A DNA stretch of 14,001 nt from Leptolyngbya sp. SIO4C5 (GTDB lineage: Bacteria > Cyanobacteriota > Cyanobacteriia > Phormidesmidales > Phormidesmidaceae): the NCBI GenBank assembly GCA_010671965.1, contig JAAHIC010000039.1:1-14001 (forward strand), written 5' to 3'. Position 1 is the first letter of the stretch; every line of letters begins with the position of its first letter. The position numbers and the translations under genes were made by a program. Under the pieces are notes generated by a model. That model searched no databases. It had not been told where the DNA came from and saw only the letters and a program-made list of their open reading frames with translations. Shown one piece after another: positions 3,166 to 14,001 of the stretch.

Positions 3166-4010
3166 GGTAGTGCTTTTTAGTAAAGGACAGAGGAAATAGC
3201 TGGATGGCCCGATTCGATGAGTCGTTTTCTGATTAAGCGATTGTATTCGTGGATGAACGTCCAGATCGCGCCAATATGGTTTTCTAGCTTCTTTGAGAAC
3301 GACAGGGTCTTTCTGACTAATCGCGATACCCGCTGTCGCATCGTGTTGTTCAACCGCTCGATATAGCTCGTCAACCCGCTCTCTTTGCCGACTACCACGT
3401 GGCGCTTGCTCGGAATAACGGTTTCATAGGCCTCCCAATAGTCGGTGTAGACTTTGGCGCATTGTCGGTAGACCGCCGGTAGCGACTGCCATAACTGCCG
3501 GGCTGATACTCTCGAACGGTCGCCGACATGACAGGCGATAATTTCTCGGGTGTCTACATCGATGGCTAACCAGACCCACTGCTTATTGCCCTTGTCATCG
3601 ACAAACGACCACAACTCATCCATCTGTACCGTCAGCTTACCCTTGGCCTTAGGGATAACCGGCGCGGTTCGGACCACCTGGGCATAAGCGTTGTTGACGT
3701 GCTCCTGGAGCCACCTCTGGCAGACCTGAGTGACTCGGGCAATACCGGCTAAGGGAATCTTCTCCAATAGAAGTAAGGTGACGAGACCGATAGTGTCTTT
3801 GTCTTTGGGTTTCCATTGCGGGTCTTCGACGAACTGACGTCCACAGTCTCGGCACTTGTAGTTTTGCTTGCCCCGGCGCGTTGTACCGTTCTTTGAGATG
3901 TCGTGGGAGCCGCAGGTGGGGCAGGTCATCTCGATCGCCATCGCGCTCATGCCTCAGAACACGGTAGATAGGTCACCTTTATTCTCTATCCTTTACATTA
4001 GTGGACTACC
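3166..4010 (-). mobile_element. IS1 family insertion sequence, complete
   Basis: This is an 845-bp element inserted inside the outer transposase gene, opposite to its direction. Its ends start GGTAGT on both sides. The imperfect inverted repeats match at 20 of the first 27 positions, with a shared GTAAAGGA block at positions 15-22. Both ends abut the 8-bp direct repeat CTCTGCTG. The single transposase gene is intact, so this element could be active. The precise flanks and undamaged gene suggest that it arrived more recently than its host element. Confidence 0.95.
3177..3950 (-). CDS. IS1 family transposase, single open frame (257 aa)
   Basis: This DDE transposase moves the IS1 element that encodes it. 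The N-terminus has a zinc finger (CPTC at residues 10-13 and CRDC at 33-36), corresponding to the DNA-binding InsA part of classical IS1. The catalytic half has MDELWSFVDD with Asp111, YTDYWEAY with Asp170 and ERLNNTMRQRVSRLVRK with Glu198, a plausible DDE set with the basic stretch typical of IS1 after the glutamate. In the enterobacterial IS1, InsA and InsB are joined by programmed -1 frameshifting; here both halves are read in one frame. The TAA stop lies inside the left inverted repeat, as in compact IS elements. The ATG at 3950 is the longest choice; ATGs at 3941 and 3929 are alternatives that still keep the zinc finger. Confidence 0.93.
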   Translation of the reverse strand: MSAMAIEMTCPTCGSHDISKNGTTRRGKQNYKCRDCGRQFVEDPQWKPKDKDTIGLVTLLLLEKIPLAGIARVTQVCQRWLQEHVNNAYAQVVRTAPVIPKAKGKLTVQMDELWSFVDDKGNKQWVWLAIDVDTREIIACHVGDRSRVSARQLWQSLPAVYRQCAKVYTDYWEAYETVIPSKRHVVVGKESGLTSYIERLNNTMRQRVSRLVRKTLSFSKKLENHIGAIWTFIHEYNRLIRKRLIESGHPAISSVLY

Positions 4011-5088: not shown

Positions 5089-7134
5089 TTAGTTGTGGGA
5101 CTTAAGCAAGCCTTCCAGAAACTGAGTTGGCTGATCGGTCCAGCAGAGATAAGCAAAATCGCGGGCACGGGTAATAGTGACGTATAGCAGATGCCGCTCA
5201 CGCTCCATCGCCTCTCCGAAGGCATCTTCATCCTCTAGATTATCAAATACTTTTGGAAACGGCAGTTTGTCGTCGGATAGCTGAATCGCAAAGACAGCTT
5301 TGAACTCAAGTCCTTTGGCTCGATGCATGGTGCCCAAACGCACTGCACTTACTGTTGCATTCTCCTGCTCATCAAGGTTAATAGCAGGGAGTTGAAGCTT
5401 TTCGAGCTGTTTTTGCACAGGTTTCAGAAGATATTTCACCCTAGCAAAGACGCCAATTTCTTCTAGCAGTACCCCTCGCTCACTGAGACGCTGAATTTCT
5501 TGTGCCACAAACTGTGTTTGCTGTTCCTGAGTATCAGTTGCTTTTAGGAGGGGCTCTGGCCTTTGCAGAAGACTGATTGTTCCCTTGCGGCTCTCACGGA
5601 TCCCATCAAGATCATCACTTTCTAGCTCTGAAATGCGGTCAGCAAAGCGTCTAATTTGCTCGGTCGTACGATAGTTGATTTTAAGCGTTCTAGAACGTCC
5701 CTGAACATTGATTCCTAGGGACTTAAGAGTGAATTTACCTCGGTAAATTCGCTGTCCCCCATCACCAACCAACATGAGGCGATTGTCTCCTTCTCCAGCG
5801 AGGGTGGCTAAGAACTTAAGTTCCTGAGGGCGTAAATCTTGCACTTCATCCACAATTACGGCATCAAACAGGCTTTGCCCTTGGCCAGACAGTAAAACGT
5901 CGGTAGCACGCCGAAAATAATGACCCCAATCAAATTTATGTTCGCTAGAGAGGTGAGTGATCACCTTGTCGAGGACCGTCCAAACTTGTTTGCGATCGCG
6001 CACGCTGAGCGGCGTTCCGCGTCCTTTTCGGCTTACCGAGCGATACTCATCCCAGCTGAGGATGCCATAGGTTTGAATGACCAGCTGCCATTCCTGCCAG
6101 AGTCCTGAAACATCTAGCGGACAGTCCTCGGTGCAGTAGAGTTCGATGAGATGCTGGATTTCTTTTTCATGGGGAACTCTTCCCCCCTGTTTGGCTTTGC
6201 CCAGAATCGAGCCCGCCTGGCCGGCAACAGTTAAAACAGTAATCTGATCGAGTTCTTCCGGGGTGCAGAGTAGCTGCAAATTGTGCTTCAAATTATCGCA
6301 AAGGGTTTTGACAAAGGTGGTGACAAAAACCTGCTTACCCTGCTGAGCCAAATATCGGGCTCGATGGAGAGCGACAACCGTTTTACCGGTTCCAGCAGAC
6401 CCAGTCACTTTAGCAGGCCCCTTAAACTCTCCTGTTACCAGCTTTCGTTGGGAAGGATGCAAAAAGCCAATCCAGGTAGCCAGGGGCGCTTGTAGCATGC
6501 GCTCCAGTTCGCTCGAATTTTTAACGGTGATGAAGCGGCGTTGGGTATCAGTATTTTCGATGATGGATTGTGTGAGTTGGGTGCTAGGTGGGGTGACTAA
6601 CTCACCGGCAGCGAGAGCTAACAAGCGCTCTGTCACCTCTTCCGGCAACTCTTCAATGATGTTAAGCAAGTCATCTTCGGTAATGAGCTGTCTGAGGACG
6701 GGCAACCAATCTTCGGGAACGCCGAGGCTAAGCAGATACTCGTCTTCAAAAGCATCGAGAAGGCCAATCTGCCAGGATTGGCGTTGGGGGACCACTTCTT
6801 GCACCGATTTAATGACCTTGACGACCTGCAACGCGCCGGTGCGAGGGTTGAACTCAACTTTACGGTTAGTGGCCCAATTGTAGGCATCGTCATGATGTCC
6901 CGCGTGCAGCAACGCCCAGGTATCGCCGTCTTTGTAGACGATCGCTCGCAATTCCTGAGTGATGCGGGCTGACCATAAGTTGTCATTCTTAGTTTTCGTA
7001 ACCCGCTCTAAGCTCAGCCCCGGCTGAGCGGGATTGTCCTGGAACTTGAGAATGAAGTCATTGGCTCGCTTGATCTCATTGCCAGTCAGGTTGCCTAAAG
7101 CTTGGAAAAGAGATTTGCATAGGAGAACATTCAT
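5089..7134 (-). CDS. UvrD/Rep-like helicase with N-terminal RelE/ParE-like domain (681 aa)
   Basis: This is a superfamily 1A helicase, expected to unwind or translocate on DNA using ATP. Residues 1 to about 100 look like a RelE/ParE-toxin fold: helices, then LSLERVTKTKNDNLWSARI, ELRAIVYKDGDTWALLHAGH and HDDAYNWA. About 100 helical residues follow. The helicase motifs are a Q-like HPSQRKLV (226-233), Walker A GSAGTGKT (245-252), motif II VDEVQD (about 428-433), motif III LVGDGGQRIYRG (about 450-461), motif IV INYRTTEQI (about 480), motif V GTMHRAKGLEFKAV (about 605) and motif VI YVTITRARDF (about 652). All key residues are present. The start ATG overlaps the stop of the giant helicase gene (ATGA at 7131-7134), so the two are probably translationally coupled. 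Whether the RelE-like part is a nuclease or only a binding module cannot be told here. It is probably a component of the upstream operon's system. Confidence 0.88.
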   Translation of the reverse strand: MNVLLCKSLFQALGNLTGNEIKRANDFILKFQDNPAQPGLSLERVTKTKNDNLWSARITQELRAIVYKDGDTWALLHAGHHDDAYNWATNRKVEFNPRTGALQVVKVIKSVQEVVPQRQSWQIGLLDAFEDEYLLSLGVPEDWLPVLRQLITEDDLLNIIEELPEEVTERLLALAAGELVTPPSTQLTQSIIENTDTQRRFITVKNSSELERMLQAPLATWIGFLHPSQRKLVTGEFKGPAKVTGSAGTGKTVVALHRARYLAQQGKQVFVTTFVKTLCDNLKHNLQLLCTPEELDQITVLTVAGQAGSILGKAKQGGRVPHEKEIQHLIELYCTEDCPLDVSGLWQEWQLVIQTYGILSWDEYRSVSRKGRGTPLSVRDRKQVWTVLDKVITHLSSEHKFDWGHYFRRATDVLLSGQGQSLFDAVIVDEVQDLRPQELKFLATLAGEGDNRLMLVGDGGQRIYRGKFTLKSLGINVQGRSRTLKINYRTTEQIRRFADRISELESDDLDGIRESRKGTISLLQRPEPLLKATDTQEQQTQFVAQEIQRLSERGVLLEEIGVFARVKYLLKPVQKQLEKLQLPAINLDEQENATVSAVRLGTMHRAKGLEFKAVFAIQLSDDKLPFPKVFDNLEDEDAFGEAMERERHLLYVTITRARDFAYLCWTDQPTQFLEGLLKSHN

Positions 7135-10100
7135 AGGTATTCTGACGCTTCTGACAGTTGGTCCAAAATGGTTTGCAGCGTAGTTGAATCAGCAGCTTCG
7201 ACGAGTACAGCCTCTTGCCCCTGCGTTTGCAGGGCTTGATGCATGGCTTCTGCTTGAGGATGATGGCGATCGCACAGCTTCAGGCAACGTTCACCCCGCC
7301 TGATTTCAGCAAAATATTGGCCAATCACTTGGCCGTTGGCTTGAATATCGCTGCCAGCATCTACGGTCAGAGACTCGTCACTGGCAATTTGTTGAATCAG
7401 AGGTCGCCACCGGGGATCAAATAACTCGAGATCTAGAGAGCTGTCTGGGCGATAGTTGGAGGGTGATGCGGTAGCTGCGTCAGCTTGGGGGACTACAAAC
7501 CAGTCAGGGCGATCGCGAATAGCTTTGGCCTGTTGCTTCCCTAACAACATCCGACCTATGCGGAATAAGGTTTTGGCCATCTTGTCGCGATCGCTTAAGT
7601 CGCCACAGGCGATCGTGACCACTTCATAGCCTTCATTGACTAACTCATCCCGAATCGCCTGGTCTTTCTGCGAGCGCTCTGGATCCCCGTGCAAAGACCG
7701 ACTCATACCATCTAAGTACAGGCAAATCCCTTCCTTGAGGTCATTGGGATCTTCAAAGAAGAAATCGGGGGTGGTGCTGCCTAATGGACGGCCCAAATCG
7801 ATTGACTTTTGGGGAATTGGATTTGGGAAGCCCGCTCGCTCCAACATGGTTTGCAGCAACTTTTCGGGGGCGTTGACGGGCCGATGCTCAGCATCTTCGG
7901 TCTTAGAGGGTAGCTTGGCTGGAATCGGATGGCTTTGCGTGAGAATATCACCCCACTGCTGCAATTTCTTGAGCGCCGTATGCCGATTGAGAAAGCGATG
8001 ATAGTAGGCGTTACGGAAATTGAACAAGCAATCGATGCAGGCGGTCTCACACCGGGATTGGCAGCCGTCCACGACTGCGATCGCGGCATCGACGATAGCT
8101 GGCCACTTGGCGGTGAGCTGCTCGAGCAAACCGGACCCACCGGGCATCGGGTCATACAACAACACATCAACCCGCTCTGTCCCCGAATGACCGATGGTGA
8201 GGATCTGGAGATCTTCTAAGTCCATTTCGAGGATGTTGCTGGCCCCATGACGAATCGCTTCCATGATGCTGTAAGCCACCTCGCGGTTCTCACAGTCTTG
8301 GAAGCTCAGGGCATCGGCGATCACATCGGCAAAGACCCCTGTCGGCTGAGTGTCACTGCCACAGCGGTTTTTGTGATCCTCTAAAAAGAGTTGTAGATCG
8401 CGATCAGAGGTAAACGGCGAACGGCTCTGGCCGCAGACGAGGCAGATGGTGTAGCCCAGATCATTAGTGCGAACCCGGTTAGCCGGTCCTACATTGACCA
8501 GCCGAAAATGGACATTTTGGCGGAGTTGAACGGGTTGCATGCCCCAGTTAAAGGCCAGTCCGCCGCTATGGCGATCCTGCTCATAGCCCAGGATCGTGAC
8601 AGGCATCTGGAAACGGTTATCTTCATCATCTGAGATGTTGGATTGATGGGACAAGTCCACATCACACATCGGGACCGCTTTGAGCGCTGAGGATAACAAG
8701 CTAGCGGAGAGCTGCTGTCCGGCCCCAATTTCTTTGATCGCTTCATTGCCAACGTCCACTTGGAAATACGTTGGATCATCAAGTTCTAAATGAAAATAGC
8801 GCGGGACAAACCGTTGCCCGTTGGCATAGATCAAGTTACCAGGAACGTATTCCCGCAACGCGACACTGGATGGCCGGGGCAGTTCGAAATCCTGCATCCA
8901 GCTAATACTACGGGGCATCAAAGCAGTTCCTCGAACGCTGCCGATATCTAACCCATATCCTGGCAGAAAGCCCTCAGCCGCCAGCACGCTATAGGTGACG
9001 GTATCGTCAAAGCCTTCGGCATCACTGCGCTTGCCTCGGCTTTGCCCTTTGAGTTTCTTCACCAGGCGATCGCAGCGGCGAAATAGTGCTTCCCCTTCTG
9101 GATCGAGCGACCCTTTGACCGTGCGCTCCTCCGAGAGTCGCCGGATTTGGCTCATGGCCCACTGCAAACGTTTCCAAAGACGGTCAATTACATCCGCCAG
9201 CTTGTCGCCCATCTGCGCAATGTGCTGCTTGAGTTCTTTTTCCTGAACGGCCATTGCATCGATAGCGGGCCAGGTTTCGGCAAAGGCTTGAGCAACCTGC
9301 TTGTAAAGAGACGGAGCATATTTCTGCATGAGGTCAGTGAGGGCGCTGACATCGAGGGGCGATCGCCGGATATAGCCGCTATCGTCAAACAGATATGCTT
9401 TGACTTGGCCGGGGAAGCAGGTGCCCAAAACGGTGGCGATTTCTTCGCGATCGTCCTGCGTGAGATCAGGGGCGCTGCGGGCCATCTGATGAAGCGCCGT
9501 CAGTACCGTTGCCCGAACGTGTTTGCCCACCATCAAGGTGTTGCGCAAATTGAGCTTTGGGGGATCAATCTGGCCTTCGAGGAGTCTCAAAGGCTCTTTG
9601 AAGTAGGCGCGATCGTGACTCGCGCCTCGGGCATAGGTCAGGTTGACCGCCATGCGGTGACGTCGACCCGCGCGGCCTACCCGCTGCCAGTAGTTGGAGG
9701 GCAAGGGAGGCACGTTGCGCATCAGCACTGAATCGAGCGAGCCAATATCGACGCCCATTTCCAGGGTTGGCGTGCAGACCAACGAATTAATGAGTTCGCT
9801 ATCGCCTTTGAAAATACGCTCAATGCGATCGCGCTTTTCATGGGGCACCTGAGCCGAATGCTCTTCGGGGCGGAGCATTTCAAACTGCTCATCTAAGACC
9901 CGCAGGTCATAGTCATCTGGATTCTCCGGTTCATAGGCAATGGTGCCATCGCAGCGCCAACCGGGGCAGGCCATATGGGGAGTGGGTCGCGGATGCGATC
10001 GCCGACAGACACCACAGCGATAAACCCCGGAGCTGGGCAGGATACGCAATTTGTCAGCATCAATTTGATAAACCCCTTCGCAGCCCCGCAGGGGTTTGTT

Positions 10101-12890
10101 GTAGGCATTTTTGAGGACGCTGGGCACCAACAGCTGTAGTTTGCTCTGTAAGCAGTACCAAAGCTCTTGGAAAAAGACATCCATGTCCTCAGCCGCAACG
10201 CCCCAACTGCGGGCGGCTTGACGGGCGACGGTATCCCCTTTGGAACTGAGCCATTGCTGCACTCGGGATGCACTGTCTTCATTCTTACGGGTCAGCTTGA
10301 GGCCACGAGGAACGCCCGTTAAAATCGGCATGTAGCCGCGCTGAATTTCAAAATCGCCTTCTTTCCACTTTTTGGAGAAGAGATACCCCTCGCGATCCAA
10401 CAGGATATTGTTGCGTCGGGTCACATCGAGCAGAGTGGCAATTCCTTGCACCAGCGCTTCAGGTGGCACCCCCAGGCGCGGTGCCCAGTGCTGAATGAAA
10501 TCCAAATTGGGCGTTAAGCCTCGATACTCAATTTGAATACGGCCCCAGGGTTCAAGCCCAATGCGCTGCTTCACTCCAGCCGTAATCTCGCGTAAAATTT
10601 GAATCCGCAGGAAGCACTTGCGCTCTTCGGCGTGCTTCAATCCCTCTGCCTCTTTTCGATGCACCCGCCAGACTTCGGGGATGAGGGAGCGGCTTAAATC
10701 ATCATCAGCATCAATGACGGCATCCAGACGGGCGGTCAAATCACCGATGGAAATGGCACCATCCGCAATTTGGTCATACATCAAACTGCGGAGGCGATAT
10801 CGGCGAGCATGGTCTTGCATCCATCCGGCCTGGAACGCTGCGTCTTGTCGATTGTCGGCAAAGACCAGAAGTCGCTTGCGCTCGGCATGGTGCAGCATGT
10901 TTTGGGCTAACACATGCACGTCTGAAACGGCGGTTGCTCGAATCGGACGGGCAGGCTCACGATAACGGCCAAAGTAGCTGCGCCCGCTTGCCTGACATGC
11001 AATACAGGAACTTAAATGTCCAGGGTGTTTAGAATTTTGCCGAACCACCAGTAGCGAAACAAGCTCACCTTTACGACCGCAACTCCCACACTGGTAAATG
11101 GAATCAGTGTGGAGCGTGCCGCAGGCTCGACAAAAATAGATGGGGGTGGTCGATCGCGGGTGACTGCGAGGCTTGTTCTCAGTCTCGTCTTCATCTTGGG
11201 TGATGAGGCGGTCAACTAGCAGTAGGCGATCGCCCTTGTGCTCTAAGCCCAATGGCTTCCAGAGGGTGAGGTCGTCGTGGGCTTGACCGCCAGTAGGCTG
11301 TTTATCCGTAAATTTGAAATCAGCGACAGAGTGAGCGAAGTAATGCTGCCCACAGGTATTACAGGTCAGCACCGGCAGACGGTAAAGGTCATCTTGATTG
11401 GTGCCTGCGGTATCTTCAGCGGAGAGCCATAATTTAGGCCGTTTTTGCTCCTTCGGGAAGGTAACCACCGCACCGCCTACACCGCGCACAAAGCCATGAA
11501 TCACCGGGCGCAATAGTGGGCGACCGTCTCGGCGGGAGGCGGCTCCTAATGCCAGCCAAATTAAAACTTCTTCTTCAGAGACAGGGCGATCGATAAGCTG
11601 TTTGAGATGGCGAAGCACATCGGTTAGGTGCCGAGGATGCTTGAGCACCTGGGTCGCGAGTTTATGAACTAGGGTATTGGCAGCTAAGGAATCGTAGAGC
11701 TGTGCTTGCCAATTGTCTGGATTAAGACTGAGGCCAGTGATCTGGCGGTAAACGTGGCAGACTGAAGGCCCAGGATTATCTTCTTCTACAGCAGCCAGCA
11801 CATACCTCAGCAGGGTCGCAGGCTCAGTCACCAAAGGGTCTGCCAGTTGGCGCTGATTAGCCCAGACATCTTGTTGATATTGCTCACCGACTAAAGCAAC
11901 ATTCTCTTCTGGGATGCCGAAGAAACGAGCAGCAAATTCCTGAGCAACGGAAAAACCTTCAGAGGTATTAGGATTGGCGATGGTGGCTGAAGTGGCGACA
12001 CAAACAGTTTTGGTGAGCGATTTGCCGCAGAAGGCTCGCAAACGGCGAATTAGGCAGGCTGTTTCGGCTCCATTGGCCCCGCTGAAGGTATGTGCTTCGT
12101 CAAAGACGAGAAAATCTAGACGCGCATTGTCGAACAGCGTGATATCACACTGGCGAGTTAGCAGGAGTTCGAGCTGCTTGACGTTGGTGAGCAAAATGCG
12201 GGGCGGTTTCTCGCGCATCTCTTCACGGGAAACGCGCTCTTCGGGGGGGAAAATGGCATCCGGACGCTTTTCGGCTTGCGCTTTTTGGACGGCGGCTTGA
12301 TAGTCGGCTTCAGAAGCTCCCGGTTTGAGGCGGGTTCCAGCGATGTAGGCTGCTTGTTCAGCGGTCTTGCCCACGTACATGCCAAAAGAAATGCCGGTAC
12401 CTGCTAGCAAACTCCGTAAACGCCCTAGCTGATCTTCGGCGAGGGCATTCATGGGGTAAACGATGACAGCGCTAATGCCTTCAGGCGTGCCTTGTTCGCG
12501 GAGTTTGAGGCAATGGCTGATGATGGGATAAAGGAAGCACTCGGTTTTACCCGAACCTGTGCCGGTCGAGACTAAGGTTGTCTTGCCTTCATGAATTGCC
12601 CGAATTGCTGTTTCCTGATGCCCATATACTGACGGATAGGGAATCAAGGACTGCATGAAGGTGTGAAAAATACCTTCTTCGATCAACTGCTCGACACTTG
12701 CACCCTGTCGAAAGACCTGGCTGAGACTGATGTAAGGACCTTTGAGTAAAGGGGTAGAGCGAGTAGTCTCTAAATTAAGCAGCGTGCGCATCTGCTCGTA
12801 GAGATTACTATCGGAGAATGGGTAAGCTGTCAGTTGGTATCGGAGAAAGTCGCTGACGACGTTTTCCGTGTAGACAATAGGATTGAGCAT
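7131..12890 (-). CDS. giant DEAH helicase with zinc clusters, DUF1998 region and nuclease-like C-terminus (1919 aa; DruE/COG1205-like)
   Basis: This is a superfamily 2 helicase of the COG1205/DUF1998 class. Counting from the ATG at 12890, it has Walker A STGTGSGKT (about 108-116), motif Ia YPMNALAEDQ (145-154), DEAH (264-267) and motif III TSAT (300-303). Motifs V and VI follow as TLEMGVDIG (about 1040) and QRVGRAGRR (about 1070). Cysteine pairs suggest several zinc sites: CNTCG near 511, CRACG and CGSCG near 597-615, CIAC near 632, CGVC near 958, CLVC near 1484. The DUF1998 signature is DPMPGGSGLLEQL (about 1578) followed by a four-cysteine run ending CETACIDC (about 1615). Residues ~1700-1770 look like a Vsr/DUF559-type nuclease. 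I prefer this ATG over a TTG at 12914, because relatives appear to begin near MLNPIVYTENVV, although neither start has a good ribosome-binding site. Size and layout recall DruE of Druantia (about 1,800-2,100 aa) or fused DrmA/DrmB of DISARM. A defence role is inference. Confidence 0.85.
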   Translation of the reverse strand: MLNPIVYTENVVSDFLRYQLTAYPFSDSNLYEQMRTLLNLETTRSTPLLKGPYISLSQVFRQGASVEQLIEEGIFHTFMQSLIPYPSVYGHQETAIRAIHEGKTTLVSTGTGSGKTECFLYPIISHCLKLREQGTPEGISAVIVYPMNALAEDQLGRLRSLLAGTGISFGMYVGKTAEQAAYIAGTRLKPGASEADYQAAVQKAQAEKRPDAIFPPEERVSREEMREKPPRILLTNVKQLELLLTRQCDITLFDNARLDFLVFDEAHTFSGANGAETACLIRRLRAFCGKSLTKTVCVATSATIANPNTSEGFSVAQEFAARFFGIPEENVALVGEQYQQDVWANQRQLADPLVTEPATLLRYVLAAVEEDNPGPSVCHVYRQITGLSLNPDNWQAQLYDSLAANTLVHKLATQVLKHPRHLTDVLRHLKQLIDRPVSEEEVLIWLALGAASRRDGRPLLRPVIHGFVRGVGGAVVTFPKEQKRPKLWLSAEDTAGTNQDDLYRLPVLTCNTCGQHYFAHSVADFKFTDKQPTGGQAHDDLTLWKPLGLEHKGDRLLLVDRLITQDEDETENKPRSHPRSTTPIYFCRACGTLHTDSIYQCGSCGRKGELVSLLVVRQNSKHPGHLSSCIACQASGRSYFGRYREPARPIRATAVSDVHVLAQNMLHHAERKRLLVFADNRQDAAFQAGWMQDHARRYRLRSLMYDQIADGAISIGDLTARLDAVIDADDDLSRSLIPEVWRVHRKEAEGLKHAEERKCFLRIQILREITAGVKQRIGLEPWGRIQIEYRGLTPNLDFIQHWAPRLGVPPEALVQGIATLLDVTRRNNILLDREGYLFSKKWKEGDFEIQRGYMPILTGVPRGLKLTRKNEDSASRVQQWLSSKGDTVARQAARSWGVAAEDMDVFFQELWYCLQSKLQLLVPSVLKNAYNKPLRGCEGVYQIDADKLRILPSSGVYRCGVCRRSHPRPTPHMACPGWRCDGTIAYEPENPDDYDLRVLDEQFEMLRPEEHSAQVPHEKRDRIERIFKGDSELINSLVCTPTLEMGVDIGSLDSVLMRNVPPLPSNYWQRVGRAGRRHRMAVNLTYARGASHDRAYFKEPLRLLEGQIDPPKLNLRNTLMVGKHVRATVLTALHQMARSAPDLTQDDREEIATVLGTCFPGQVKAYLFDDSGYIRRSPLDVSALTDLMQKYAPSLYKQVAQAFAETWPAIDAMAVQEKELKQHIAQMGDKLADVIDRLWKRLQWAMSQIRRLSEERTVKGSLDPEGEALFRRCDRLVKKLKGQSRGKRSDAEGFDDTVTYSVLAAEGFLPGYGLDIGSVRGTALMPRSISWMQDFELPRPSSVALREYVPGNLIYANGQRFVPRYFHLELDDPTYFQVDVGNEAIKEIGAGQQLSASLLSSALKAVPMCDVDLSHQSNISDDEDNRFQMPVTILGYEQDRHSGGLAFNWGMQPVQLRQNVHFRLVNVGPANRVRTNDLGYTICLVCGQSRSPFTSDRDLQLFLEDHKNRCGSDTQPTGVFADVIADALSFQDCENREVAYSIMEAIRHGASNILEMDLEDLQILTIGHSGTERVDVLLYDPMPGGSGLLEQLTAKWPAIVDAAIAVVDGCQSRCETACIDCLFNFRNAYYHRFLNRHTALKKLQQWGDILTQSHPIPAKLPSKTEDAEHRPVNAPEKLLQTMLERAGFPNPIPQKSIDLGRPLGSTTPDFFFEDPNDLKEGICLYLDGMSRSLHGDPERSQKDQAIRDELVNEGYEVVTIACGDLSDRDKMAKTLFRIGRMLLGKQQAKAIRDRPDWFVVPQADAATASPSNYRPDSSLDLELFDPRWRPLIQQIASDESLTVDAGSDIQANGQVIGQYFAEIRRGERCLKLCDRHHPQAEAMHQALQTQGQEAVLVEAADSTTLQTILDQLSEASEYL

Positions 12891-12927
12891 GTGTGTCGCG
12901 ATCTGGGGCAGCAAGTTTCGTGTGTAG

Positions 12928-13077
12928 TCAATACACCTCTAGCTCTCTAAAGTACTTCTTTAAAGATGCCCCAAAATCTCCGTGAATCAACGGATTTACC
13001 ACTATATCCGAAGTGAATGTTTGGTCAAACAAACTTAGTACATTCACACCAGCGACATCGAGAAAGAGCCTAGACAT
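12928..13077 (-). CDS. small hypothetical protein in the helicase operon (49 aa)
   Basis: This short open frame fills the gap between the coiled-coil gene and the giant helicase gene. It starts with ATG only 5 bases after the coiled-coil stop and ends 37 bases before the helicase ATG (13 before the alternative TTG). The translation begins MSRLFLDVAGVNVLSLFDQ and ends ASLKKYFRELEVY. It has a protein-like composition: hydrophobic positions spaced as in strands and helices, one histidine, no cysteine, and a basic-acidic helical end. It has no signal peptide or clear membrane span, and I do not recognise the family. The tight spacing on both sides and the lack of any stop over 49 codons favour a real gene. 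It could instead be the tail of a larger protein shifted out of frame, or chance. No strong ribosome-binding site precedes it, so translation may depend on coupling to the upstream gene. Confidence 0.55.
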   Translation of the reverse strand: MSRLFLDVAGVNVLSLFDQTFTSDIVVNPLIHGDFGASLKKYFRELEVY

Positions 13078-13082
13078 AGAAA

Positions 13083-13931
13083 TTAGGACTTCTGTGTTGT
13101 GTTGTCTTTAGATTCATTCAAGGAATTGAACAGCTTGAAGGGATTGCACAGCTTAATTTTCTTGCGTTCTTCTTCTAGCTGTTGCTTAACTGTGCTTAGT
13201 TCATCTTGACATTGTTGCTGCGCTTCTTTCTGAGCTTGCTCACTGCGTTCAAGGTGGGCTACTCGATCGTTGAGCTTGCCTTTTTCATAGTTTGAGCGAT
13301 GATGTTTCTCTTGAAGGGCATCATATTTAGCTTCTAATGCCTCTAATTTGCCTGCTAGCAAACTTTTTTGTGCAACTTCTGCGCTGAGACTTTTTTGGCA
13401 AGCCAAAACTTCTGCTCTTGAAGAATCGTATTTTGTTTGCAGGCTATTACCGGCTTTAGCTAAATCCTGAAGATGTTGAGCTTGCAGTGCTAACTGTTCT
13501 TCTGTATGTCTAACCTGTGTAACTAAGGTCGCAGAGGCTGAGGGAATCGCCTTCAGCGAATTAGTGACAGCTGAGAGACTCTGTTGAAGATCGGAGAAGT
13601 CAATAGACTTAGACCCTGAAGTTAAACTGTACCTGTTCCAGAGTGAGCGAAGTATGGTTACAGCTTGCTGTGGTGAGTTTTTGGCTCTGAAATCGTATCT
13701 CACTGGAAGTAGAATCGCGACATCCGATGAGTTATTGGTATCTTCAGCTTCAGCACTATTAAGACGTTCAATAAGCTCAGTTAGCGATGATGACAAGGAA
13801 TCCCTAAGTATTTGGAGCTGTTGCTCTCGTTCAGTCACTAGGCGCTGGTAACCATCCAAATCATTTGTTAGGGTTTGCTGTCTAGTCTGAGCTTTGTCTA
13901 ACTCCTGGCGATGTTGATTGCTCAATACTCT
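13083..13931 (-). CDS. coiled-coil protein of unknown function, 5' end missing or chimeric
   Basis: The protein is about 280 residues and mostly charged helix with long heptad-like stretches rich in Q, E, K and L. One runs from the start to about residue 65 (QHRQELDKAQTRQQ onwards) and a longer one from about 140 to 265 (RHTEEQLALQAQHL to KQQLEEERKKIKL). Between them a non-coiled part (about 70-125) includes DVAILLPVRYDFRAK and AVTILRSLWNRY, which could be a small globular domain. There is no signal peptide and no clear membrane segment. The only available start is TTG at 13940, but the first three codons lie inside a 70-base inverted copy that reaches the window edge, so I begin the trustworthy coding part at 13931. 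It stops at TAA 13085-13083, five bases before the 49-codon ORF, so it is the first visible gene of the helicase operon. A structural, tethering or sensing role is possible but not shown. Confidence 0.65.
   Translation of the reverse strand, partial: RVLSNQHRQELDKAQTRQQTLTNDLDGYQRLVTEREQQLQILRDSLSSSLTELIERLNSAEAEDTNNSSDVAILLPVRYDFRAKNSPQQAVTILRSLWNRYSLTSGSKSIDFSDLQQSLSAVTNSLKAIPSASATLVTQVRHTEEQLALQAQHLQDLAKAGNSLQTKYDSSRAEVLACQKSLSAEVAQKSLLAGKLEALEAKYDALQEKHHRSNYEKGKLNDRVAHLERSEQAQKEAQQQCQDELSTVKQQLEEERKKIKLCNPFKLFNSLNESKDNTTQKS
13523..13592 (+). repeat. internal arm of a 70-bp perfect inverted repeat
   Basis: These 70 bases, coding inside the coiled-coil gene, are repeated in inverted orientation at 13932-14001 without a mismatch. 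The arms are separated by 339 unique bases. Confidence 0.95.
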
Positions 13932-14001
13932 GATCTTCAACAGAGTCTCTCAGCTGTCACTAATTCGCTGAAGGCGATTCCCTCAGCCTCTGCGACCTTA
14001 G
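13932..14001 (-). repeat. terminal arm of the 70-bp perfect inverted repeat, reaching the window edge
   Basis: This is the exact reverse complement of 13523-13592. The match ends at a GATC shared by both arms and may continue past base 14001. Read on the minus strand it has no sensible coding connection to the coiled-coil gene, with an in-frame TGA just before the TTG at 13940. This suggests a fold-back junction at about 13931/13932. Confidence 0.95.

Follow-up and report, generated by a model that had tools for sequence, protein, structure and literature searches.

The 14,001-base window analysed here, a whole contig of the source genome (Leptolyngbya sp. SIO4C5, JAAHIC010000039.1), carries on its minus strand a giant YprA/DUF1998 helicase-nuclease gene followed by the gene of a UvrD helicase with a RelE-like N-terminal part. 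Comparison of their sequences suggests that this pair is most likely ArmC and ArmD of ARMADA, a four-enzyme anti-phage system presented in a 2025 preprint (PMC12458937; what we report from it follows its main text), and not a new four-gene system. An earlier annotation of the window (the original prediction) had placed both helicases in a four-gene defence operon and held that no named system pairs them; ARMADA type II does so, combining ArmC (YprA/DUF1998) with ArmD (RelE-UvrD) (PMC12458937). What is new here is a rule that, in this ArmC clade, ties one C-terminal tail of ArmC to the presence of ArmD.

The window encodes an ArmC-like and an ArmD-like helicase

Four open reading frames (ORFs) stand in a row on the minus strand, separated by 5 and 37 bases and then joined by a 4-base overlap, coordinates that agree with the original prediction. 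Its distinction of two large helicases also holds: the giant protein matches DEAD, Helicase_C and MZB (DUF1998; E 2e-11), whilst the 681-amino-acid (aa) protein matches UvrD-helicase and UvrD_C. Both helicases are genes, because close relatives exist elsewhere, and both are intact; the other two of the four proposed genes, a coiled-coil ORF and a 49-aa ORF, have no gene support except an open frame. The features are as follows.

7131..12890, minus strand: ArmC-like YprA/DUF1998 helicase-nuclease, 1919 aa (domain matches and motifs)
8025..8264, minus strand: MZB (MrfA Zn-binding, DUF1998) domain of ArmC (profile match)
7506..7880, minus strand: Vsr-type PD-(D/E)xK nuclease domain of ArmC, residues about 1671-1795
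7134..7499, minus strand: C-terminal tail (CTD) of ArmC, residues 1798-1919, a second, degenerate PD-(D/E)xK-like fold, ArmD-associated
5089..7134, minus strand: ArmD-like UvrD/SF1 helicase, 681 aa, overlapping ArmC by 4 bases
6850..7134, minus strand: RelE/ParE-superfamily-like N-terminal domain of ArmD, residues 1-95 (sub-threshold matches and predicted topology)
12928..13077, minus strand: 49-aa ORF upstream of ArmC, probable cargo or spurious (no family match)
13083..13927, minus strand: coiled-coil ORF, orphan, 5' end missing, probable cargo
13928..14001, no strand: terminal 74 nucleotides (nt) of the contig, repeating 13523-13596 in inverted orientation, probably a foldback artefact of the assembly

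The ArmC ORF, if it begins like its relatives, starts with the ATG at 12890 (a TTG at 12914 would add 8 residues); it carries Walker A GTGSGKT (residue 110), DEAH (264), motif VI QRVGRAGR (1069) and seven CxxC pairs. In its Vsr-type nuclease, D1709, D1727, H1734, D1743 and R1747 are invariant across nine aligned orthologues. Foldseek returned no match at E<=0.001 for a model of the C-terminal 280 aa; a second aligner likened this model to Vsr-type and VRR/Hjc-type PD-(D/E)xK folds. ArmD carries Walker A GSAGTGKT (245) and VDEVQD (428). Its N-terminal part gave sub-threshold matches to YoeB/ParE Pfam families and a predicted beta-alpha-alpha-beta-beta-beta-beta-alpha topology; in fold searches with the whole ArmD model, where the RelE domain was not isolated, the helicase part filled the match lists.

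Among 115 genomes, the source included, eight others encode an ArmC-like protein at 58-76% identity (61-77% in the alignment), the remaining matches being more distant family members. The UvrD gene directly follows ArmC in six of these eight loci and thus, with the window, in 7/9, in keeping with the proposed defence module of a DruE-like DUF1998 helicase-nuclease and a RelE-UvrD helicase. A wider scan took one genome per species and kept the best 80, by likeness to the query, of 126 stretches with a relative, plus one from viral contigs. Of these 81 loci, 49 show an ArmB-like gene within the sequence fetched, 25 of them immediately upstream of ArmC; 37 show an ArmA-like gene, placed second upstream in 22; and in 7 loci ArmD comes directly after ArmC. 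Whether the helicases mostly occur apart, which had been named as a possible refutation, depends on the range considered: the close group keeps them together, whilst in the wider clade adjacency is confined to those seven loci, and ArmD homologues are also seen in stretches that lack ArmC.

In our tree ArmC groups with ARMADA ArmC, apart from Druantia

As references we used proteins from the Zorya-Druantia-ARMADA array of Escherichia coli ATCC 8739, in which ArmA-ArmD, DruE and DruH were assigned by gene order and the descriptions in the main text of PMC12458937. Our own ArmC tree, which is not the published one, comprises 73 proteins (FastTree, midpoint root; 42 of the 81 scan loci included). 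It places the window's ArmC within a clade of 49 members (support 0.996) that spans many phyla. This clade groups with the E. coli type II ArmC clade as its sister (support 1.0), apart from E. coli DruE/Druantia III, and L041, L062 and L069-L073 make up a third group. The window's clade also holds an archaeal metagenome-assembled genome (L163).

With ARMADA type II, as described in the main text of PMC12458937, the window's relatives share the ArmA-ArmB-ArmC-ArmD order, which would also be that of the window's operon. Further common features are a GajB-like UvrD helicase with a RelE-like N-terminus right after ArmC, a YprA helicase with a Vsr-type nuclease and then a degenerate nuclease-fold domain, the Walker motifs and the NPPW motif of ArmB. 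They differ in that the window's ArmC lies in a separate clade (21.6% identity to E. coli ArmC over 1694 aligned positions), that an extra gene x stands between A and B and the ArmB-ArmC gap is used as a cargo slot, and that the window's ArmD, about 35% identical to E. coli ArmD, belongs to a different ArmD lineage. ARMADA type I, ArmA-ArmB-ArmC without ArmD, is what the majority of the clade around the window's ArmC shows, although the YprA-first order that the same text gives as general is unlike that of the window's relatives (PMC12458937). DISARM class 1, as described there, has in common an SNF2-type helicase, a PglX-like methyltransferase and a YprA helicase; in DISARM the DrmA helicase and the DUF1998 protein DrmB are separate genes, whereas here both parts lie in a single 1919-aa ORF.

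One alternative is a Druantia type III variant, with the giant helicase as DruE beside an unknown partner. The helicase is of the same large DUF1998 family, E. coli DruE is as similar to it as E. coli ArmC is, and the best PADLOC models are DruE3 (402 bits) and DruE1 (371 bits). The best PDB sequence match of the window's ArmC, 9tu7 (2108 aa, E 9.5e-60), is called a DEAD/DEAH box helicase; it may be a DruE, a label that is our guess. PADLOC 2.0.0, however, dates from 2023 and predates the name ARMADA, the tree places the window's ArmC with ARMADA ArmC and away from E. coli DruE, the partners are ArmA and ArmB, and the C-terminus models as PD-(D/E)xK, compared with PLD-like C-terminal domains in Druantia III (main text of PMC12458937). 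We therefore regard this alternative as improbable. An E. coli DruH query, too distant for the purpose, had no BLAST match among the fetched loci, not even in the Druantia-like L056-L061.

The probable upstream half of the operon lies on another contig

Contig C428 of the source genome carries ArmA (1089 aa, 78% identical to the L087 copy), a 138-aa gene x (60%) and ArmB (75%), which runs from position 10090 to the last base and is cut by the contig end. The ArmA gene, which in ARMADA encodes a BrxHII/RapA-like (SNF2) helicase, matches SNF2-rel_dom (E 1.8e-20); the ArmB gene, with an Eco57I domain and an intact NPPW motif, is the only ArmB match in the source genome at E<=0.001. In L087 (Leptolyngbya PCC 7375) the order is A-x-B-C-D, in L170 with L035 it is A-x-B-MkoA-MkoB-Uma2-388 aa-C-D, and in L172 with L034 it is A-x-B-192 aa-C-D, the 192-aa gene resembling the Uma2 gene of L035. 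ArmA and ArmB overlap by 4 bases in 23 of 33 loci showing both. Gene x occurs as a 138-aa form without a Pfam family (L169 9613-10029) and a 317-aa form with a NOV_C domain (L087 3727-4680).

An ArmB gene or fragment lies upstream in six of the other eight close orthologue loci, and the remaining two meet a contig end first, in one case 2.7 kilobases (kb) upstream with only small ORFs before it. An intermediate reading, that the orthologue loci lack ArmA and ArmB, was discarded: it came from stretches that were too short and from a type IIG-like gene not recognised as ArmB. In L034 and L037, PADLOC labels ArmB as a type IIG enzyme and DrmMI. The window most likely shows the cargo-C-D part of an A-x-B-cargo-C-D arrangement, the adjacency of C428 and the window being what we infer from these relatives. 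The likely partners of the two helicases are thus ArmA and ArmB, in place of the coiled-coil and 49-aa ORFs of the original prediction, which are not conserved.

That ArmC and ArmD form a free-standing two-gene defence system, without ArmA and ArmB, is unlikely, if a little less so than the Druantia variant. The window shows nothing else, the two genes overlap by 4 bases, and L089 and L137 show no ArmA or ArmB before the contig end. Against this, ArmA and ArmB are in the same genome and cut at a contig end, the close orthologue loci have ArmB upstream or reach a contig end first, and E. coli ARMADA type II required all four genes, with cells surviving (main text of PMC12458937).

MZB/DUF1998 and UvrD families include repair enzymes, and the pair might accordingly be a housekeeping DNA-repair pair of an MrfA-like helicase and UvrD. 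Its distribution is patchy: such an ArmC (E<=1e-200) occurs in 3 of 386 genomes drawn from the phylum, the source included. Nearby genes in relatives encode methyltransferase, Mokosh, McrBC and type IIG-like proteins, and the source genome has a separate MZB match on C271 (6785-7015, near a contig end). These points leave a repair role the least probable of the alternatives, and a very slight one.

A C-terminal tail of ArmC accompanies ArmD

We classed the ArmC proteins of the window's clade by the sequence that follows the Vsr-type nuclease (after residue 1797). Three classes were found: no tail (at most 26 aa), an S24/LexA-motif tail of 174-208 aa, and a third tail of 118-138 aa. The count was restricted to intact genes with enough downstream sequence: of 84 proteins classed, 68 were counted and 16 set aside, namely 15 with too early an end of the gene or contig and the broken L165. 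ArmD directly follows ArmC in 10/10 proteins with the third tail, 0/27 with the S24 tail and 0/31 with no tail (0/58 for the other tails together), giving a Fisher value of 3.4e-12 in which independence is overstated, as L089 (= L033), L035 and L034 are 92-97% identical.

A natural deletion shows the same linkage. L036 lies inside the ArmD-bearing cyanobacteria and has neither ArmD nor most of the tail (111 of 118 tail residues are missing). Compared with L033 its flanking DNA matches, and a 2,431-base stretch of L033, comprising those 111 tail residues, ArmD and 53 bases after ArmD, is replaced in L036 by 46 other bases. In the P0131/P0011 clusters ArmC is without a tail, but its last residues resemble an out-of-frame tail, and ArmD is cut short; we place this case neither for nor against the linkage. 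In L041, ArmC (24% identical to that of the window) carries the window's kind of tail (E 5e-23), and ArmD shares 52% identity with its counterpart in the window; between them, at 10449-13013, lies a protein that resembles DUF262 in sequence and has a CTD-like domain (E 1e-23). The Vsr-type nuclease of the L159 ArmC (14912-15781) has lost the LDG motif, whilst a tail and ArmD are still present.

A tree of 34 ArmDs, with the two L066 pieces left out, divides those beside the window's ArmC clade into three lineages: the window type, with L041 and L076-L078 (support 1.0); a planctomycete type, nearest to E. coli ArmD and weakly supported; and L159, with genes of L079-L083 (support 0.982). The cyanobacterial CTD profile alone misses the tails of L121, L128 and L159 (E 3 to 10) and reaches type II tails directly at only 2.4% probability; the link from CTD to type II runs via an intermediate set, partly picked with a profile trained partly on L121/L128. 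A profile of planctomycete-type and type II tails gave E 0.011 against the window's own tail, and between the tail and the active Vsr domain there was no profile similarity (7% or less).

The S24 tail was recognised in L100 as Pfam Peptidase_S24 (E 3.4e-9, 15401-15952), PF00717 being listed for relatives too, and an S24/LexA-like motif or domain ends the YprA helicase-nuclease in 30 of the 84 classed proteins (L100 and 29 further loci). In the few S24 tails read by eye, the S and K of the dyad seem present.

Neither the tail-ArmD rule nor the S24 tail came up in the main text of PMC12458937, the one paper listed that treats ARMADA at length, or in the openings of the other abstracts consulted; that main text holds no S24, LexA, protease or Mokosh. 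Its sections consulted here also leave unexplained why ARMADA needs the RelE-UvrD protein and how it is attached and restrained (PMC12458937). The linkage suggests that the third tail would dock ArmD. We further offer, as a tentative model to which we give slightly less than an even chance, that ArmC is a common DNA-cutting chassis whose tail sets the effector: none, an S24/LexA-like self-cleaving switch responding to a damage signal, or a dead nuclease fold that would dock and restrain RelE-UvrD. Tail and ArmD would move as one cassette, with ArmD recruited from at least three lineages. The tail-ArmD pairing and the natural allele without ArmD and nearly all of the tail allow a simple binding/deletion test, and the members that end in an S24/LexA-like domain suggest that this machine has a second control, linked to damage.

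The gap between ArmB and ArmC as a slot for other defence genes

Of the 49 loci with ArmB upstream, the gap to ArmC is below 150 bases in 22 and at least 300 bases in 25, reaching 9.1 kb. We scanned 46 of 80 ORFs from these gaps, with the 25 most frequent of 48 and of 147 families considered; those listed include AbiEi/AbiEii, Shango, Mokosh, DRT1a, BrxD, BrxH, OLD, PemK, GmrSD and PIN, with one or two ORFs each. In L088 (4917-9889) and L035 (14926-19835) the gap holds a Mokosh-like pair (MkoA, MkoB). That other defence genes occupy this slot suggests a way in which composite islands are built.

The window's coiled-coil and 49-aa ORFs are placed where the slot would be, and both are probably cargo of the ArmB-ArmC gap. 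The last 74 nt of the contig (13928-14001) repeat 13523-13596 in inverted orientation at 99% likeness, and a 29-base piece of this copy had no match in 200 shuffles. This copy is probably a foldback assembly artefact, so the coiled-coil start first assigned (13931/13940), which lies within it, is unreliable and the gene lacks its 5' end. In a word-seeded search against 5.8 billion proteins the coiled-coil ORF returned itself alone, and none of the other 114 genomes searched gave a match. The 49-aa ORF found no family match in three libraries and was searched no further. The idea of a new four-gene system with a coiled-coil partner was rejected, as no relative of this ORF was found and its place in related loci holds other genes or none.

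A proposed mechanism and the points that weigh against it

We consider it very probable that the two helicases of the window are ArmC and ArmD and make up the 3' half of an ARMADA operon, with the 5' half (ArmA, x, ArmB) on C428, and that the system acts in the following way. ArmB, an Eco57I/PglX-like methyltransferase, would mark self DNA. On unmarked phage DNA, the SNF2-like ArmA and the YprA-like ArmC would translocate, and ArmC would cut it with its Vsr-type nuclease. ArmD, the UvrD helicase with a RelE-like domain, would be bound to ArmC through the degenerate nuclease-fold tail and may aid in unwinding or degrading nucleic acid. For the RelE-UvrD helicase we noticed no antitoxin gene.

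Several observations weigh against this proposal. The window's ArmC is equally far from E. coli ArmC (21.6%) and E. coli DruE (22.6%) in aligned identity, and no sequence common to C428 and the window contig joins them. The majority of the window's ArmC clade is without ArmD, and ArmD homologues occur without ArmC in L076-L083 (stretches of 3.7-19.9 kb). L062, L069 and L071-L073, which belong to another clade, have a more distant UvrD gene upstream of the one for the YprA protein, and no CTD was detected there. A DUF262-type protein of L171 (7644-10229; labelled by likeness) has a CTD-like domain, with no ArmD in 19.9 kb. The RelE assignment is based on sub-threshold matches and a predicted topology, and we know of no phage test for any member of the window's ArmC clade.

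Other features of the window and its relatives

Among phage records there was no match at E<=1e-50. A copy on a plasmid (CP101713.1) is split over several ORFs, with no helicase annotated after it, and in L066 ArmC is shorter with an unrelated end sequence and ArmD is in two pieces. Two large genes follow ArmC-ArmD or ArmC in relatives (L033 1106-8190; L036 1548-8635), measuring about 1066 and 1339 aa in L033; one of them has only a weak Helicase_C match.

The nested transposons reported beside the operon were confirmed: an IS1-family transposase (3177-3950) separates two fragments that resemble, by weak matches, one DDE-type transposase. At 36-2030 the window encodes a RecD2 helicase, whose match covers model positions 62-712 of 713 and whose N-terminus is probably cut by the contig start.

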